The notes under the pieces: generated by a model
The model's database searches: none
Told to the model about the DNA's origin: nothing
Seen by the model: only the letters and a program-made list of their open reading frames with translations
Program-made: the position numbers and the translations under genes
Part shown: piece after piece, positions 26,045 to 34,138 of the stretch
Numbering within the stretch: the stretch's first letter is position 1
Layout of the letters: each line of letters opens with the position of its first letter
Assembly: GCA_029881895.1 (NCBI GenBank)
Contig: JAOULS010000005.1
Location: 1-37,241 of the forward strand
Direction: 5' to 3'
Origin: Cyclobacteriaceae bacterium
GTDB lineage: Bacteria; Bacteroidota; Bacteroidia; Cytophagales; Cyclobacteriaceae
DNA length: 37,241 bases

Positions 26045-26698
26045 ATGACACTTTTTTCTCAAAATTTAAGTACTCTGCATTATCATAGAGCAATTATATT
26101 CATCATCTTATTATCAATTTCGGCACCTTCAATAAGTCAAGACTGGTATAACGCACTAAAAAGTGAGCATAAACGCGCTCGATTTGGTGTTGGAATAATC
26201 GCAAGCGATCCTCTTGGCATAGAATTAGAATTATTTAAAGGAGAATTTTGCAGTAATGGAAATGGTTATAAAGCCGCCACGATATGGATGCTTAACCTAG
26301 GTGTTGAAAATATAATTTCAAATATACCTTCATTTACTGATAATGTTATGTACGACCAAACAGGAGAACTAAAACCTGGTGGTATGAGAGGTGAATTTGG
26401 CGTGTTACTTAAACTGTTTTCAATTACGGCAGATGCTTTTACTGTTCAATTTCACATTGGCCCTACTATTGAGGGAGGAAGCAGGAAGTATCAGATTGAT
26501 AACGATCCAACAACTTCTACTTTTGATATTGCAGGCAATGGACATGCACGACTAACGTTAACTTCAAGTGGAGTAGAGGTTGGTCATGGTTTAGTTTTTG
26601 TTAGCTTTCATGCAGGTTTAAAATATCAGCAGGTATTTAATGCAGATTACAGCTATTTAAAACCAACTTTTGGTGTAGTTTTAAGAAAAGTGAGATAA
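26045..26698 (+). CDS. Secreted/outer-membrane protein, unknown
   Basis: This 217-residue protein has a signal peptide (about 1-32, ending ...SAPSISQ). The mature part alternates short beta strands with Gly-rich turns ('ARFGVGIIASDPLGIELELF', 'GEFGVLLKLFSITADAFTVQ', 'GLVFVSFHAGLKYQQVF') and ends in a strand, 'PTFGVVLRKVR'. This looks like a small outer-membrane beta-barrel of eight or so strands, although the C-terminal residue is Arg rather than the usual Phe. I do not recognise the family. It is 62 bases upstream of the methyltransferase gene on the same strand; whether it belongs to that operon is unclear. Confidence 0.7.
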   Translation: MTLFSQNLSTLHYHRAIIFIILLSISAPSISQDWYNALKSEHKRARFGVGIIASDPLGIELELFKGEFCSNGNGYKAATIWMLNLGVENIISNIPSFTDNVMYDQTGELKPGGMRGEFGVLLKLFSITADAFTVQFHIGPTIEGGSRKYQIDNDPTTSTFDIAGNGHARLTLTSSGVEVGHGLVFVSFHAGLKYQQVFNADYSYLKPTFGVVLRKVR

Positions 26699-26760: not shown

Positions 26761-27834
26761 ATGCAAAATTTAACCGAAAAACAGCTTACCGCACTCAATC
26801 CAAAATTTGAAGCACAAAAAATAGCCTTCTCACCTATTGTATTTCAAACTGTAATTTCATTAAGAGAGTTAGGTATATTAGATTATCTGTTTGATAATTT
26901 TTCAGAAGCAACTATTGAGGACATCTGTGATCACTTAAAATTAAGTGACTATGGCGTACGAGTTCTGTTAGAGATGGCCGAATGTGCCGATATAATTGAG
27001 TACATTAATAAAGATAGAGTCAAACTCACTAAAGTTGGTTTTTTTATTCTCAATGATGAACTTACAAGAGTCAATCTTAATTTTGTAAATGATGTTTGCT
27101 ACCATGGAGCGAAGTCGTTGACCGAATGTATTAAGACTGGTAAACCCGAAGGGTTAAAAGTCTTAGGGAATTGGAAAACTGTATACGAAGGGTTATCTCA
27201 ATTACCAGAAAAAATAAAAACATCTTGGTTCGAATTTGATCATTATTATTCTGATGATGCTTTCCCTACGGCTTTAAAAATCGTTTTTAATGAAAACCCA
27301 AAATATATATTTGACATAGGAGGAAATACTGGAAAATGGTCATTTGCCTGTTGTGATTTTGATAAAAATGTAAATGTTAAAATTCTCGACCTACCTGGCC
27401 AATTAAATATAGCTAGAGAAAATGCTAAAAATAGAGGGCTACTAAACCGTGTTGATTTTCATCAAATAGATTTATTAGATGAATTCCAAAAGATACCGAA
27501 GGGTGCAGACGCTATATGGATGAGTCAATTTTTAGATTGCTTTTCACCTGAAGAAATTATTAAAATACTTAAAAACGTAAAACAAGCAGCTAGTGATACT
27601 ACCAACATATATATTATGGAACCATTCTTTGACAATCAACGATTTCCTGCTGCCAAATATAGTTTAACAGCTACCTCTCTTTATTTTACAACAATAGCAA
27701 ATGGAAACAGTAAAATGTATAGCTGCAATAAAATGAAAGAATTAGTTTCTAAATCTGGCTTAGAAGTAGTAGAAGTTTTTCCGCTTATAGGAGATAGTTA
27801 TCATACTATCTTAAAATGTCGTAAAACACAATAA
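26761..27834 (+). CDS. SAM-dependent methyltransferase with N-terminal winged helix
   Basis: This 357-residue protein has an N-terminal winged-helix-like dimerisation region (about 25-95, 'LRELGILDYLF' and 'TIEDICDHLKLSDYGVRVLL') as in small-molecule O-methyltransferases. A class I SAM-binding domain follows, with motif I D185-I-G-G-N-T-G-K-W and the acidic end of strand 2 at D210 ('ILDLPGQLNIAREN'). 'IWMSQFLDCFSPEEIIKIL' matches the catalytic region in which plant and bacterial enzymes carry a His; here Gln256 stands near that place. It probably methylates a phenol or ring carbon of the product of the locus. It is 17 bases from the next gene. Confidence 0.85.
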   Translation: MQNLTEKQLTALNPKFEAQKIAFSPIVFQTVISLRELGILDYLFDNFSEATIEDICDHLKLSDYGVRVLLEMAECADIIEYINKDRVKLTKVGFFILNDELTRVNLNFVNDVCYHGAKSLTECIKTGKPEGLKVLGNWKTVYEGLSQLPEKIKTSWFEFDHYYSDDAFPTALKIVFNENPKYIFDIGGNTGKWSFACCDFDKNVNVKILDLPGQLNIARENAKNRGLLNRVDFHQIDLLDEFQKIPKGADAIWMSQFLDCFSPEEIIKILKNVKQAASDTTNIYIMEPFFDNQRFPAAKYSLTATSLYFTTIANGNSKMYSCNKMKELVSKSGLEVVEVFPLIGDSYHTILKCRKTQ

Positions 27835-27851
27835 CCTAAATTTAATACAAT

Positions 27852-28325
27852 ATGAAGTTACTTGTCCACCTATTTTTACCCTTATTTATCACACTACTTC
27901 CTCAACAAAAAACATCTGACAGCTATTACCTGTCCTTATCTTCTAATGAAAAAAACAAAATTGATGAGCAAATAAGATCACTTGAGGAACAATCTACTTC
28001 CTCTCAAACAAGGGCTTATTATGGTGCTATTCTTATGAAGAGGTCTTCATTTGAAGATATTGTTAAAAATAAAATTGCCATGTTCAGAAAAGGTCATGAC
28101 TTACTAGAAGAGGAAATAGATGCTTTTCCTAAAAATATTGAATACCGTTTTTTACGCTTAGCGGTACAAGAAAATGCTCCTAATATTTTAGGATACAATA
28201 CAGATATTAAAGTAGATAAGTCAATCATAGTAAAACAATATAAGGAACTTCCTAGCACGTTAAAATCTCATATATTGAGTTATTGCAAAAGTTCAAAAAT
28301 ACTTTCTTCGGAGGAGTTATTATAA
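27852..28325 (+). CDS. Small secreted helical protein of flexirubin-type loci, unknown
   Basis: This 157-residue protein has an N-terminal signal or membrane segment (MKLLVHLFLPLFITLLPQQ). The rest is helical, with the pattern 'TRAYYGAILMKRSSFEDIVK', 'LLEEEIDAFPKNIEYRFLRL' and 'AVQENAPNILGYNTDIKVDK'. I recall similar small proteins, with the stretch 'RL.(I/V)QENAP..L.YN', in flexirubin clusters of flavobacteria, with no assigned function. This recall should be checked. The gene lies 17 bases after the methyltransferase and 51 bases before darA. A TPR-like or chaperone role for the membrane enzymes is possible but not shown. Confidence 0.7.
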   Translation: MKLLVHLFLPLFITLLPQQKTSDSYYLSLSSNEKNKIDEQIRSLEEQSTSSQTRAYYGAILMKRSSFEDIVKNKIAMFRKGHDLLEEEIDAFPKNIEYRFLRLAVQENAPNILGYNTDIKVDKSIIVKQYKELPSTLKSHILSYCKSSKILSSEELL

Positions 28326-28376
28326 ATGTGAAAAATAATAATTATTATGGTAATTCATTTTTTTTAAATTGACCCT

Positions 28377-29297
28377 ATGAAAAACATTTTAGTAGTTAAT
28401 TACTCACAAACGGGACAATTGAATGATATTTTAAATAATATCACACAGCCTTTACAGCATCACACCATAGAGGTTATTAGGGTTTCTCCACGTGAAAATT
28501 TCCCATTCCCATGGACGGGAGAAGCTTTTTTTAACGCAATGCCAGAAACAGTACTTGAAGAACCTATCGAGCTATCTCCTATACTCTTTAAACGAGATAA
28601 ATACGATTTAGTGATTTTTGGGTATCAACCATGGTTTTTATCACCATCATTACCTGCAACCTCCATCTTAAAAAATAAATCTTTCGCTAAAGTTATTAAA
28701 GGCACTCCAGTTATTACTGTAATTGGCGCTCGAAACATGTGGTTAAATGCTCAAGAAAGTGTAAAAACTCTGATACATGAATCGGGAGGGAAATTAGTAG
28801 CAAATATTCCATTAATCGATAGAAATAACAATTTAGTGAGTGCTCTTACTATTATGCATTGGATGTTTGGAGGTGAAAAAACAAAAAAATGGGGAATGCT
28901 ACCCAAGCCAGGGATTATTCAAGAAGACATTGACAGTTCTTGTGATTTTGGAGAAATCATTAATGTATCGATCGATGAAAATGAATACCATACGCTTCAA
29001 GAAAAAATACTTGAATTAGATAGAATAATTATTAATACCAATATTTTATTTATCGAAGAGAGAGCTAAAAAATTATTCAAGATTTGGGCTAATCTTATTA
29101 AATCGAAAGGACTTACGACAAAGAAGAGAAAATTTTGGGTTACTTTTTTTAAGTATTATCTCATTTTTGCTTTATTTGTTGTATCTCCAATAGTGCTTTT
29201 TGTATTCAATATTTTAGTAAAACCATTTATTATGAATAGCCTACAGAGAAAAAAAGATTACTTTTGTTCAGTTAACTTAAATACAAAGAATGCCTGA
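28377..29297 (+). CDS. darA: DarA-like dialkylresorcinol-forming enzyme with C-terminal membrane anchor
   Basis: This 306-residue protein begins with a flavodoxin-like fold: 'MKNILVVNYSQTGQLNDILN' has the phosphate-loop pattern S10-Q-T-G-Q, and strands 'YDLVIFGYQPWFLSPSLPAT' and 'GTPVITVIGARNMW' follow. The family is annotated as dialkylresorcinol condensing enzyme DarA. Published work on dar genes assigns DarA the aromatisation of the cyclohexanedione made by DarB, which fits a flavin fold. A long hydrophobic helix pair (about 253-286, 'YYLIFALFVVSPIVLFVFNI') anchors it to the membrane. It overlaps darB by 8 bases (ATGCCTGA). The family call is from memory of its motifs. Confidence 0.8.
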   Translation: MKNILVVNYSQTGQLNDILNNITQPLQHHTIEVIRVSPRENFPFPWTGEAFFNAMPETVLEEPIELSPILFKRDKYDLVIFGYQPWFLSPSLPATSILKNKSFAKVIKGTPVITVIGARNMWLNAQESVKTLIHESGGKLVANIPLIDRNNNLVSALTIMHWMFGGEKTKKWGMLPKPGIIQEDIDSSCDFGEIINVSIDENEYHTLQEKILELDRIIINTNILFIEERAKKLFKIWANLIKSKGLTTKKRKFWVTFFKYYLIFALFVVSPIVLFVFNILVKPFIMNSLQRKKDYFCSVNLNTKNA

Positions 29298-30432
29298 AGT
29301 ATATATAACACGCACAGCTAGCTTTTTACCTAACAACCCGATTGGAAATGATGAAATCGAAGATTACTTAGGGTTTATTAATGGTGCTGCATCAAGAACT
29401 AGAGCATTGATTTTACGTAACAATAAAATTAAACAACGGTATTATGCAATGGACAAAAGTGGGCAGCTTACCCATACGAATAGTGAAATTGCTGCTACTG
29501 CTATCAGAAACCTTTTCGAAAAACATCCTGATGAGATAAAAGATGTAGAATTATTGAGTTGTGCCACCTCCTCACCTGATCAGATAATGCCTTCACATGG
29601 CATGATGGTTCATGGAGAATTACCTGAATCAGGTAATATGGATGTCACTTCGCCATCTGGTAATTGCTGTTCGGGGATGCATTCCTTAAAATATGCATAC
29701 TACGCTATTAAGTCAAAAGAGATAACTAAAGCCGTTACATGTGCTTCTGAAAGATTGGGACAGGTAATGCGTCACGATAAATTTGAAGAAGAGATTCAGC
29801 GATTAGTAGAAGTAGAAGATAAACCAATTCTAGCATTTGAGAAAGACTTTTTGAGGTGGATGCTATCGGATGGAGCAGGTTCATTCTTAATCGAAGATAA
29901 AAAAAGTGAAACTGGAATATCATTAAGGATTGACTGGATTGAATCTGTTTCTTTTGCCAACCAAGAAGAGGCTTGCATGTATCAAGGATGTGAAAAAATG
30001 AAAAATGGGAGTACTAAAAGTTTTAAAGAGTACACTCCTGAGGAGATAATAAATCAATCGATTTTAAGCATTAAACAAGATGTGAAATTATTAGGAGAGA
30101 AAATTGTTGCTTTAGGGTCAGATACATGTGCTGAAATACTTGCCAAAAGAGGCGTTAAATCGAGTGAAATCGATCACTTTCTCACGCATATGTCTAGCTT
30201 TTATTTTGAAGATAAAATAGATGACAGAATGCATGAAAAAGGAATTCCTGTACCGAAAGAAAAATGGTTCACTAACCTTGATAAAGTTGGGAACGTTGGG
30301 TCTGCCTCTATCTATATTATGATAGATGAATTAATGAAAAGTGGCAAATTAAAAAAAGGAGAAAAAATTCTTCTTTCTGTTCCCGAAAGTGCTCGATTCT
30401 CGTACGCATATAGCATGCTAACCGTTTGCTAA
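29290..30432 (+). CDS. darB: DarB-like ketosynthase (KAS III type)
   Basis: This 380-residue thiolase-fold ketosynthase has the KAS III catalytic triad: Cys127 in 'PSGNCCSGMHSLKY', His300 in 'DHFLTHMSSFYF' and Asn335 in 'KVGNVGSASIYIM'. An extra Cys126 precedes the nucleophile. The N-terminus 'PEVYITRTASFLPNNPIGND' and 'RYYAMDKSGQLTHTN' fit DarB proteins of flexirubin-forming bacteria. DarB joins two fatty-acid-derived beta-ketoacyl units into a dialkyl cyclohexane-1,3-dione, which DarA then aromatises. The length is that of a DarB/KAS III protein. It overlaps darA by 8 bases and is 2 bases ahead of the next gene. Confidence 0.9.
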   Translation: MPEVYITRTASFLPNNPIGNDEIEDYLGFINGAASRTRALILRNNKIKQRYYAMDKSGQLTHTNSEIAATAIRNLFEKHPDEIKDVELLSCATSSPDQIMPSHGMMVHGELPESGNMDVTSPSGNCCSGMHSLKYAYYAIKSKEITKAVTCASERLGQVMRHDKFEEEIQRLVEVEDKPILAFEKDFLRWMLSDGAGSFLIEDKKSETGISLRIDWIESVSFANQEEACMYQGCEKMKNGSTKSFKEYTPEEIINQSILSIKQDVKLLGEKIVALGSDTCAEILAKRGVKSSEIDHFLTHMSSFYFEDKIDDRMHEKGIPVPKEKWFTNLDKVGNVGSASIYIMIDELMKSGKLKKGEKILLSVPESARFSYAYSMLTVC

Positions 30433-30434
30433 AA

Positions 30435-30833
30435 ATGGAGAAAAAAAATGTACCGCAAGACAAATCGGCTTTATCAGGATACACGCGAGACGTATGCTAT
30501 GTAAAAAATAAAGATGGCAAATACGAAAAAGCATTAAGTACAGGTTGGGAGGTGAAAGCCGAAGCACTTGGAAATGCTTGGGACGATATTCACAACAGAG
30601 TTGAAGAAGCTAAAATTGCGGTAAAAAATGGAAAAAAAAGTCCTATCTATTATTTTTTTGAATTGAAATTAATGGACATGCATGTCATTTCAGGGTATAC
30701 TGGTTTTTGGAGTTTCACCATAAAAAGACACATGAAGCCTCATGTGTTCAAAAAACTAAGTAACCGAAAGCTTCAAAAATATGCAGATGCATTTGACATT
30801 TCGTTAGAAGAGCTAAAAAATTTCAATGGATAA
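30435..30833 (+). CDS. Small soluble protein of the dar locus, unknown
   Basis: From the ATG at 30435 this is a 132-residue protein without signal peptide or TM helix; a TTG at 30426, inside darB, is less likely. It has 'ALGNAWDDIHNRVEEAKIAV', 'SPIYYFFELKLMDMHVISGY' and a basic C-terminal part, 'VFKKLSNRKLQKYADAFDIS', that resembles the second half of a helix-turn-helix. I recall homologues in flexirubin clusters but no function. The XRE-like tail may be chance, because the rest is not a DNA-binding protein. It overlaps the BtrH-like gene by 8 bases (ATGGATAA), so it is surely part of the same unit. Confidence 0.75.
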   Translation: MEKKNVPQDKSALSGYTRDVCYVKNKDGKYEKALSTGWEVKAEALGNAWDDIHNRVEEAKIAVKNGKKSPIYYFFELKLMDMHVISGYTGFWSFTIKRHMKPHVFKKLSNRKLQKYADAFDISLEELKNFNG

Positions 30834-31866
30834 GACCACCACACCTACTGTCAAATTTAACCATCTACAAACCGCTCATTGTGAAAATGGAGTCACTACA
30901 AGTCTGCTCCAACATCATGGGATTGACTTCATGAGTGAACCTTTAGCATTCGGGTTAGGCGCTGGCCTTTTTTACATTCATGTTCCGCTAATTACTGTTT
31001 TAAATGGTCCATTTATCTCATTCAGGACTCTTCCAGGCACTATTTTTAAACGTACCTGTAAGGCGTTAGGGGTTAAAGTAGAGCGCATAAAATTTAGCAA
31101 CAAAAACACTGCTCAGGATTATCTTGATAAACAAATAGAAAAAGGAAGGTTGGTAGGGAGTCAAGTAGGTGTATTTCACTTACCCTACTTCCCACCAGAG
31201 TATCGCTTTCATTTCAATGCACATAATATCATTATCTATGGTAAAGATCAAGAGGGAAACTATCTAGTAAGTGATCCTGTAATGGAAACCACTAATGTCC
31301 TTACGCCAAATGAATTACAAAAAGTAAGATTTGCACAAGGACCATTAGCGCCAAAAGGTCAACTTTACTACCCTGTAAATGTAAGCAAGGTTTCTACTGA
31401 CTTATTAAAGAAAGGGATCATAAAAGGGATCAAAAGAAATGTAAGAGACATGCTGTATATTCCTGGTTTTTTTGCTGGTTCGAAAGGAATAAAATTTACC
31501 GCTGGTCAGGTTAGAAAATGGCGTGACAAACTAGGACAAAGAAAAGCAGGACTCTATTTGGGTCAGATTGTACGAATGCAAGAAGAAATAGGTACTGGTG
31601 GCGGTGGTTTTCGTTTTTTATATGCTGCTTTTTTAGAAGAGTCAGCAAGTTACTTCGATGGAAACGAAGAACTACTAAAAGCATCGGAACAAATTACAAA
31701 AGCTGGAGATTTGTGGCGAGATAGTGCTGTTCAAATGGCTGGCATTTATAAAGGCAGACTAACCGAACAAAGTGATTATAATTTATCAGCCTCTATTTTA
31801 GAAGAAATATCAAACGTAGAGCAACAGGCTTTTCGTCAGTTATCAAAACTTAAACTATCTTCGTAA
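30826..31866 (+). CDS. BtrH-like acyltransferase (BtrH N-terminal and DUF4872 regions)
   Basis: This 346-residue protein starts with the papain-like BtrH N-terminal domain: C19 in 'HCENGVTTSLL', H133 in 'FNAHNIIIYG' and D150 in 'YLVSDP' give a plausible Cys-His-Asp triad. The C-terminal half ('IGTGGGGFRFLYAAFLEESA', 'AGDLWRDSAVQMA') resembles DUF4872. BtrH moves an acyl group from an acyl carrier protein onto an aminoglycoside, so this protein may transfer an ACP-bound acyl chain, here perhaps to a resorcinol hydroxyl as an ester. That substrate is inferred. An ACP gene lies four genes downstream in the same unit. It overlaps the ABC ATPase gene by one base (TAATG). Confidence 0.85.
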   Translation: MDKTTTPTVKFNHLQTAHCENGVTTSLLQHHGIDFMSEPLAFGLGAGLFYIHVPLITVLNGPFISFRTLPGTIFKRTCKALGVKVERIKFSNKNTAQDYLDKQIEKGRLVGSQVGVFHLPYFPPEYRFHFNAHNIIIYGKDQEGNYLVSDPVMETTNVLTPNELQKVRFAQGPLAPKGQLYYPVNVSKVSTDLLKKGIIKGIKRNVRDMLYIPGFFAGSKGIKFTAGQVRKWRDKLGQRKAGLYLGQIVRMQEEIGTGGGGFRFLYAAFLEESASYFDGNEELLKASEQITKAGDLWRDSAVQMAGIYKGRLTEQSDYNLSASILEEISNVEQQAFRQLSKLKLSS

Positions 31867-32600
31867 TGTCTTCCAATATTTGTATTGAAATACATGAACT
31901 CTCAAAAAAATACAAAAATGCTACTCATAATAGCCTTAACAAGGTAAACATCAACATAAAAGCTGGTGATAAATTTGGGGTTATAGGCCCTAATGGGGCT
32001 GGAAAAACTACACTTATCTCTATCATTTGTGGAATCATCCCTGGTTCATCGGGCAATGTTAATTTTCTGCAAACTGAAAACATAAAACAACAATTAGGTT
32101 TTGTTCCACAAGATTATGCTTTTTATCCGCAACTAACGCCTGTCCAAAATTTTGAATATTTTGGGGCACTTTATAACTTAAATAAAAAAAACATATCTGA
32201 TAGGATTGACAACCTTCTTCCCATTCTGGGGTTAGAAAAAGTAGCAAACAAAAAAATAAACACCTTTTCAGGAGGCATGAAAAGAAGGGTGAATTTAGGA
32301 ATAGGCATATTTCATGAACCATCAATATTACTATTAGACGAACCAACGGTAGGTGTTGACGTCCAAAGTAAAAATGCTATCATGAAATTACTACATGAAC
32401 TCAATAAAAATGGAACAACAATTATTTATTCTTCACATCATCTTAGTGAAGCGGAAGAATTCTGCAATACAATTGCTTTAATTGATCATGGAGAAATTAT
32501 TGCTAACGACTCGACATCCGTTTTGTTAAAAACATATCACTCAAAAAATCTACAATCATTATTTATTCAACTCACAGGCACCGAATACCGAGATGTTTAA
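31866..32600 (+). CDS. ABC-2 type transporter ATP-binding protein
   Basis: This 244-residue cytoplasmic ATPase has Walker A GPNGAGKTT (41-49), Q-loop Q82, signature FSGGMKRR (134-141), Walker B ILLLDEP (154-160) and H-loop H191. The layout matches DrrA/CcmA-type ATPases that pair with an ABC-2 permease. It would power export of the locus product, or move lipid precursors across the inner membrane. It overlaps the permease gene by 8 bases (ATGTTTAA), which shows tight coupling. Start and length are normal. Confidence 0.95.
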   Translation: MSSNICIEIHELSKKYKNATHNSLNKVNINIKAGDKFGVIGPNGAGKTTLISIICGIIPGSSGNVNFLQTENIKQQLGFVPQDYAFYPQLTPVQNFEYFGALYNLNKKNISDRIDNLLPILGLEKVANKKINTFSGGMKRRVNLGIGIFHEPSILLLDEPTVGVDVQSKNAIMKLLHELNKNGTTIIYSSHHLSEAEEFCNTIALIDHGEIIANDSTSVLLKTYHSKNLQSLFIQLTGTEYRDV

Positions 32601-33864
32601 ACTAAAGACCTCCATAAAAAAAGAATTTTTAATTCTACTAAATGACAAAGTAGGCTTATCTATCATGTTTGGTCTTCCGATAGTCCTTGTTTTTTTAATG
32701 ACCATCATTCAAGATAGCGCTTACAAAATAGTAAATGAAAATAAAGTAAAGATCCTTATTTCGAATCAAGATAAAGGCACTTTAGGAACAAAGTTCATCC
32801 ACCTTATTGAAGATTCTAAGTCTTTTGAAATAGAATTAGACAATCAATTAAGTTTAATTGCCACGAATCGTGAATTACTAAAGAGGGATAAGCTTATTGC
32901 ACTATATATTCCTGAAGTATTTTCAGCATCTATGGAAGAAAAGGCCAATTACATTTCAAAAAAAATGCTTGTAGATTTAGGGTTAGCTAGTGACACCATA
33001 ACCGATAAATTATCAAAAACCGAAATCACATTTTTTCACGATCCTATTTTACAAGATAATTATGCTAGTTCAATTATGGGGCTCATCTCTACTTTTTTAG
33101 GAAGTATAGAGCAAAACTTAATGGTTGAAAGAGTATATCATCAAATGGGTTTCGAAAATCCTAAAAATCTTGAGCATACAATTCTGGAAAACAGAACGAA
33201 AATCACTAAAATAGCTTCCTCTACTTCTAACAAAGTACCCAACCCAAATTCAACACAACATAATGTCCCTGCATGGACGATATTTGCGATGTTTTTCATG
33301 GTACTTTCGCTTGGAAGTAATATTACACAAGAGAAAAACAGTGGTAGTTTTATTCGTCTTAAAACCATACCTACACATTATAGTATGATCCTTATTAGTA
33401 AAATGCTTGTATACATTTTTGCTGCACTCCTACAGGTAATCATTATTTTTTCAATAGGAAAATTTATTTTTCCTTATATTGGTTTACCTGACCTAGAAAT
33501 GCCCACTCATTTTGGTGCGTTTGTTTTGATTGTGGTATTAAGTAGTATAGCAGCAGTAAGTTATGCCGTAATGATAGGCAGTATTTCCAAAACTCCAGAA
33601 CAAAACAATGGTATAGGTTCTATATCCGTTATGATATTCGCAGCACTTGGCGGTATCTGGGTCCCCCTTTTTGCTTTACCTGATTACATGGTATTTATTA
33701 GTAATTTTTCCCCCATGCGATGGTGCTTAGAGGGCTTTTATTTATTATTTTTAAGTGATAATGGATTAAAAGAACTAACAGGCGTAGTAATTTCAATAAT
33801 CATTTTTATTATTGTCTGTCAGGTCATTACCTTTGGAAAATTAAAACACGAAAAATTAATATAA
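32593..33864 (+). CDS. ABC-2 type transporter permease
   Basis: This 423-residue protein has the ABC-2 permease layout: TM1 at about 20-40, a large extracytoplasmic domain (about 45-220), then five TM helices (about 225-250, 265-290, 300-330, 340-370 and 395-418). 'PMRWCLEGFYLLFL' near the end is typical of DrrB/YhgE-like permeases. It is the partner of the preceding ATPase. It may export a resorcinol ester or move it to the outer membrane; the substrate is inferred from context. The acyl carrier protein gene starts four bases after its stop. Confidence 0.93.
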   Translation: MFKLKTSIKKEFLILLNDKVGLSIMFGLPIVLVFLMTIIQDSAYKIVNENKVKILISNQDKGTLGTKFIHLIEDSKSFEIELDNQLSLIATNRELLKRDKLIALYIPEVFSASMEEKANYISKKMLVDLGLASDTITDKLSKTEITFFHDPILQDNYASSIMGLISTFLGSIEQNLMVERVYHQMGFENPKNLEHTILENRTKITKIASSTSNKVPNPNSTQHNVPAWTIFAMFFMVLSLGSNITQEKNSGSFIRLKTIPTHYSMILISKMLVYIFAALLQVIIIFSIGKFIFPYIGLPDLEMPTHFGAFVLIVVLSSIAAVSYAVMIGSISKTPEQNNGIGSISVMIFAALGGIWVPLFALPDYMVFISNFSPMRWCLEGFYLLFLSDNGLKELTGVVISIIIFIIVCQVITFGKLKHEKLI

Positions 33865-33868
33865 GAAA

Positions 33869-34138
33869 ATGGATAAAGAAGAACTTAAAACCGAATTAAA
33901 AAATCACATCATCAAATACCTCAACCTTTTGGATTTAACCCCTGAAGACATCAAAGATGACGAAGTGCTTTTTGGAGAAAACCTTGGTCTTGATTCAATA
34001 GACTCAATAGAATTAATTGTTATGTTAGAGAGAGAGTATAAAATAAAAATAAAAGACCCGAAAGAAGGAAGGAAAGTTCTAATAGATGTAAATCATATAG
34101 CCGATTATATTATTTCAGAAAACGAAAAGTCTGCATAA
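33869..34138 (+). CDS. Acyl carrier protein
   Basis: This 89-residue acidic protein has the phosphopantetheine attachment site GLDSIDSIEL with Ser43. Helix 2 after the site ('SIELIVMLEREYKIKIKD') and the closing helix ('DVNHIADYIISENEK') are typical. It is distinct from a housekeeping AcpP in sequence and sits as the last gene of the unit, so it most likely serves DarB and the BtrH-like protein; published dar operons also carry an ACP (DarC). The end is 8 bases from that of the convergent TerB-like gene. Confidence 0.95.
   Translation: MDKEELKTELKNHIIKYLNLLDLTPEDIKDDEVLFGENLGLDSIDSIELIVMLEREYKIKIKDPKEGRKVLIDVNHIADYIISENEKSA

Follow-up and report, generated by a model that had tools for sequence, protein, structure and literature searches.

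Does a compact dialkylresorcinol locus lying apart from any aryl-polyene genes specify a product of its own, or is it one half of a flexirubin pathway whose other half is encoded elsewhere? Flexirubins are yellow-orange bacterial pigments. The question is raised by a group of genes in a member of the Cyclobacteriaceae, for which the original prediction offered both answers: either the acid half is made elsewhere, or the locus makes a different methylated or acylated dialkylresorcinol. On the basis of sequence comparisons we consider it highly probable that the locus supplies the dialkylresorcinol half of a flexirubin pathway that is split, with its polyene half located elsewhere in the same genome. 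The absence of aryl-polyene genes has this ordinary explanation, and the anomaly disappears at the scale of the genome.

Organisation of the dar operon

The stretch of DNA analysed (the window) is an entire contig of 37,241 bp (G000:C195) from a fragmented MAG of 2.85 Mb in 312 contigs, which is 90% complete with 4.4% contamination. Nine tightly packed open reading frames, all on the plus strand, span positions 26761-34138 of the window in the following order:

26761..27834, + strand: FlxJ-family SAM methyltransferase, 357 aa (NF053543, 469 bits)
27852..28325, + strand: small protein with a putative signal peptide, 157 aa (BLAST matches adjoin DarA in other loci)
28377..29297, + strand: DarA, dialkylresorcinol aromatase with a flavodoxin-like domain and a C-terminal hydrophobic helix (alignment, AlphaFold)
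29290..30432, + strand: DarB, KAS III-like cyclase/ketosynthase (NF053539, 594.7 bits)
30426..30833, + strand: DarG, flexirubin biosynthesis protein (NF053545, NF053536; start probably ATG 30435)
30826..31866, + strand: DarH, predicted BtrH-related acyltransferase (NF053550; Pfam BtrH_N and DUF4872)
31866..32600, + strand: ABC transporter ATPase (Pfam ABC_tran, 2.4e-28)
32593..33864, + strand: ABC-2 type permease (Pfam ABC2_membrane_3, 7.8e-27)
33869..34138, + strand: acyl carrier protein, ACP (Pfam PP-binding, 8e-9)

These limits, and the common direction of all the genes, are exactly those predicted; the count of eight genes has to be raised to nine. DarG (30426-30833) and the small exported protein (27852-28325) had not been named. 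That most of the genes overlap also holds, with overlaps of 1-8 nt at five of the eight junctions (four of the eight if DarG begins at the ATG at 30435 rather than at a TTG) and gaps of 4-51 nt at the others. No aryl-polyene genes are present on the 37,241 bp contig and the operon is closed on both sides by unrelated genes, both as originally described: a 217-aa ORF and a minus-strand cytochrome c gene lie upstream, and a minus-strand 136-aa gene and a peptidase-like ORF lie downstream. The 217-aa ORF (26045-26698), which is directly upstream of the operon and has no family match, was considered as a possible member of the operon and rejected, because it is absent from this place in the sister genome (G001).

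Assignment of the operon products

DarB passes its NCBIfam profile (NF053539; 594.7 bits against a cut-off of 550, E 7e-179), in line with the original description of a DarB-like KAS III protein, and matches the solved ketosynthase StlD (5gk0) over its full length (E 1.5e-107). Residues Cys126, His300 and Asn335 are invariant in an alignment of DarB homologues. Loci L018, L019, L020, L021 and L022, from relatives at the family or order level, encode a longer DarB-like protein, with open frames of 617-648 aa as compared with 380 aa for the flexirubin type. The protein first described as BtrH-like passes the DarH_acyl profile (NF053550; 442.9 against 300 bits, E 6.5e-133) and comprises the Pfam domains BtrH_N and DUF4872. 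Its residues Cys19, His133 and Asp150 are invariant in 14 aligned homologues; a search of solved structures by sequence returned no match to DarH. DarG exceeds the cut-offs of two NCBIfam models (NF053545, 184 against 170 bits; NF053536, 177 against 70 bits; E 1.2e-54), and since its predicted fold is poor (pLDDT 55) no function was read from the model. The genes encoding the ABC ATPase and the ABC-2 permease hold the same position in other dar operons. The ACP, which is 89% identical in the sister genome, has an intact phosphopantetheine site (DSI, within the sequence LGLDSIDSIEL).

No model matched DarA in Pfam or NCBIfam scans, and its assignment rests on alignment and gene position rather than on a curated model. 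This 306-residue protein, correctly anticipated to be DarA-like, is 39-77% identical, aligned along its length, to the proteins that occupy the DarA position beside DarB in 12 other loci. Its AlphaFold model (pLDDT 79, pTM 0.84) consists of a flavodoxin-like domain (approximately residues 1-200) followed by a long helix at the C-terminus, and FMN flavoproteins and flavodoxins match it in VIA-align (Z about 12 over residues 1-200); searching solved structures by sequence gave no match. The model suggests that DarA binds FMN. DarA and DarB are annotated as DAR-aromatase and DAR-cyclase, respectively (PMC3949708), and a flavin-type fold fits the former annotation, since the conversion of a cyclohexanedione to a resorcinol is an oxidation. 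The small 157-aa protein showed no confident family in Pfam and NCBIfam scans. Its position directly before DarA is conserved in several flexirubin loci, and its BLAST matches adjoin DarA in L004-L007, L100, L102, L103 and L104.

Polyene genes elsewhere in the genome

The flx genes were located by ketosynthase and aromatic ammonia-lyase searches of the genome, both of which matched contig C152. Here FlxA, a tyrosine ammonia-lyase, passes NF053541 (844 against 700 bits), the reductase FlxB scores 396 bits against a cut-off of 340, and LolA2 and LolB2 pass flexirubin-specific cut-offs. The same contig encodes ketosynthases, dehydratase-like proteins, two ACPs, a thioesterase, an acyltransferase, a deacetylase and a glycosyltransferase. 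A further ketosynthase pair and an FAD enzyme are located on C268, and C2 carries a FlxY-like ligase with 54% identity to the ligase of G016, together with an MMPL-type exporter, a further FAD enzyme and a short ORF resembling a PPTase. The aryl-polyene ketosynthase and dehydratase genes, for which a search of the genome had been recommended, are found on C152 and C268, and the flx set on C152, C268 and C2 supports the suggestion that the acid half is made elsewhere.

The sister genome holds the same dar operon, with proteins 67-89% identical, and the same flx set, most proteins of which are 56-98% identical. Mis-binning of the flx contigs was considered and judged unlikely, because the sister carries both halves at comparable identity and the GC content agrees, being 33.3% in both the dar part and the flx part on C152. 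Among the loci found, the nearest relative with a name is the Cyclobacteriaceae MAG JAOUKH (L004). An FAD enzyme divergent beside FlxA (L076, G000:C152, 9156-10451) has the halogenase CmlS as its best NCBIfam match, at 170 bits and below cut-off, and may bear on chlorinated flexirubins.

Association of dar and flx genes in the Bacteroidota

Among 395 Bacteroidota genomes, DarH is found in 31 and FlxA in 33, and all 31 genomes with DarH also possess FlxA (Fisher p 5e-44, a value that overstates the number of independent events because the genomes are related). FlxA is likewise present in all 30 of the genomes in which DarB is over the cut-off. These counts bear on the alternative that the product is a dialkylresorcinol, either free or carrying other acyl or methyl groups, which serves as a signal or antioxidant independently of a polyene. 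Such a product would suit an operon with its own ACP, methyltransferase, acyltransferase and exporter, and the dar genes of Pseudomonas chlororaphis do make dialkylresorcinols without a polyene. However, the P. chlororaphis cluster as described consists of darA, darB, darC and two regulators and has no BtrH-like gene, both this genome and its sister carry an flx set including FlxA and FlxB, and none of the 395 genomes has DarH or an over-cut-off DarB while lacking FlxA. We regard this alternative as extremely improbable; the different methylated or acylated dialkylresorcinol originally entertained finds no support. The absence of polyene genes from a dar locus does not by itself point to a new product: in the sampled Bacteroidota, DarH and the flexirubin-type DarB are always accompanied by FlxA elsewhere or nearby in the genome.

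The original prediction also held that the dar genes of flexirubin producers are normally part of a large cluster. This is true to the extent that DarH lies within 30 kb of FlxA in 26 of the 31 genomes, but separate loci are also a known arrangement. In the other five genomes the two genes are apart, either on different contigs (G000, G335 and G426) or at a distance of 186 kb (G055) or 813 kb (G304), although the separation in G426 probably reflects only an interrupted contig, its dar operon being next to polyene ketosynthases. In G016, a member of the same family, dar and flx are about 285 kb apart. The split between dar and flx is found in a minority of genomes but recurs. In G055 even the members of the dar set are scattered (L099, G055:C1, 9883-11343), with DarG and DarH on C1, DarB on C8, FlxA 186 kb from DarH and FlxJ at another site on C1.

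It is also conceivable that dar and flx form one contiguous cluster that was broken in the draft assembly, given that the MAG comprises 312 contigs, that C152 and C195 end within a few kb of biosynthetic genes and that G426 looks like a break of this kind. Against this, the operon is bounded by unrelated genes to either side both in the window (which extends 26 kb upstream and 3.1 kb downstream) and in the sister genome, more than 12 kb of unrelated genes follow the flx set on contig C186 of G001, and true splits are seen on the long contigs of relatives, namely G304, G055 and G016. We consider such a break very unlikely as the explanation, and favour a genuine split of the flexirubin pathway.

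Comparison with published systems

Chitinophaga pinensis, a flexirubin producer of the Bacteroidota, likewise has dar (Cpin_6850-6851) and flx (Cpin_1853-1877) at separate loci and possesses FlxA, FlxB and FlxY homologues (PMC3992019); FlxJ, by its name, is a member of the flx cluster there, whereas a FlxJ homologue heads the dar operon here. Flavobacterium johnsoniae has the same enzyme classes, but its dar and flx genes are united in a single 37-kb flexirubin cluster (PMC3992019). In Azoarcus sp. BH72, the dar locus (darA-darK) is separate from two polyene loci, and the organism makes arcuflavin, a hybrid of polyene and dialkylresorcinol for which an ester linkage is predicted (PMC3949708). 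Like the operon in the window, this locus encodes DarA, DarB, a conserved hypothetical protein, a BtrH-like protein, an ABC ATPase and permease and an ACP, and lies away from the polyene genes. In contrast to the window, it additionally contains a ketosynthase, plus two genes with PilT-domain and prevent-host-death annotations, and lacks a methyltransferase, arcM being situated in an arc locus; the Azoarcus polyene begins from 3-hydroxybenzoate (XanB2 type), whereas here it would begin from tyrosine. Since nearly the same dar gene set has been published for Azoarcus BH72, there is already a known example of a compact dar locus that has an ACP, a BtrH-like protein and an exporter of its own. 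In a survey that covered 16 genomes with dar genes, these genes lay inside or beside polyene genes in nine (PMC3949708).

Proposed pathway and the FlxJ-type methyltransferase

For characterised homologues, dialkylresorcinol has been obtained by heterologous expression of darA with darB, and FlxA and FlxY have been reported to initiate polyene synthesis (PMC3992019). By reference to characterised homologues and annotation, DarB would condense two fatty-acid-derived thioesters to a cyclohexanedione, which DarA would oxidise to a 2,5-dialkylresorcinol. The flx genes on C152, C268 and C2 would make the aryl-polyene acid from tyrosine, with FlxA converting tyrosine to coumarate, FlxY activating the coumarate, and the ketosynthases, FlxB and the dehydratases extending the chain derived from it. 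BtrH is an enzyme that transfers an acyl group carried by an ACP, and DarH, as a predicted ACP-dependent acyltransferase of this type, most likely attaches the polyene acid to a hydroxyl group of the resorcinol. This role is suggested by the invariant Cys19, His133 and Asp150, by the BtrH type of the protein and by its never occurring without FlxA in our sample, a near-perfect pairing that supports the idea of DarH as the ester-forming enzyme; a proposal of 2014 had assigned this step to the ligase-like FlxW (PMC3992019). The ABC pair may have a part in pigment transport towards the outer membrane.

For the FlxJ-type methyltransferase of the dar operon, the most likely role is C-methylation of the polyene's aryl ring, because the polyene ring of the C. 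pinensis flexirubin bears a methionine-derived methyl group (PMC3992019). It seems very unlikely that the dar-linked enzyme has instead switched its substrate to the dialkylresorcinol while a second copy on contig C245 keeps the aryl ring, which would give a flexirubin methylated on both halves. The FlxJ family profile (NF053543) matches the window methyltransferase over the full model at 469 bits (E 8e-141), below the equivalog cut-off of 560 bits. This cut-off looks strict, since none of the 15 flexirubin genomes tested has a FlxJ above it, and we describe the putative methyltransferase as FlxJ-family only. It occurs at the same operon position in the sister genome (83% identity) and in L005 (67% identity), and relatives sit near FlxA in G016, G288 and G335. 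The sister genome has a single FlxJ match. The second FlxJ-family methyltransferase of the present genome (L096, G000:C245, 2784-3842) is 61% identical to the window copy and lies on its own among unrelated genes; in a tree, the window copy groups with those of G001 and L005, and the C245 copy is their sister.
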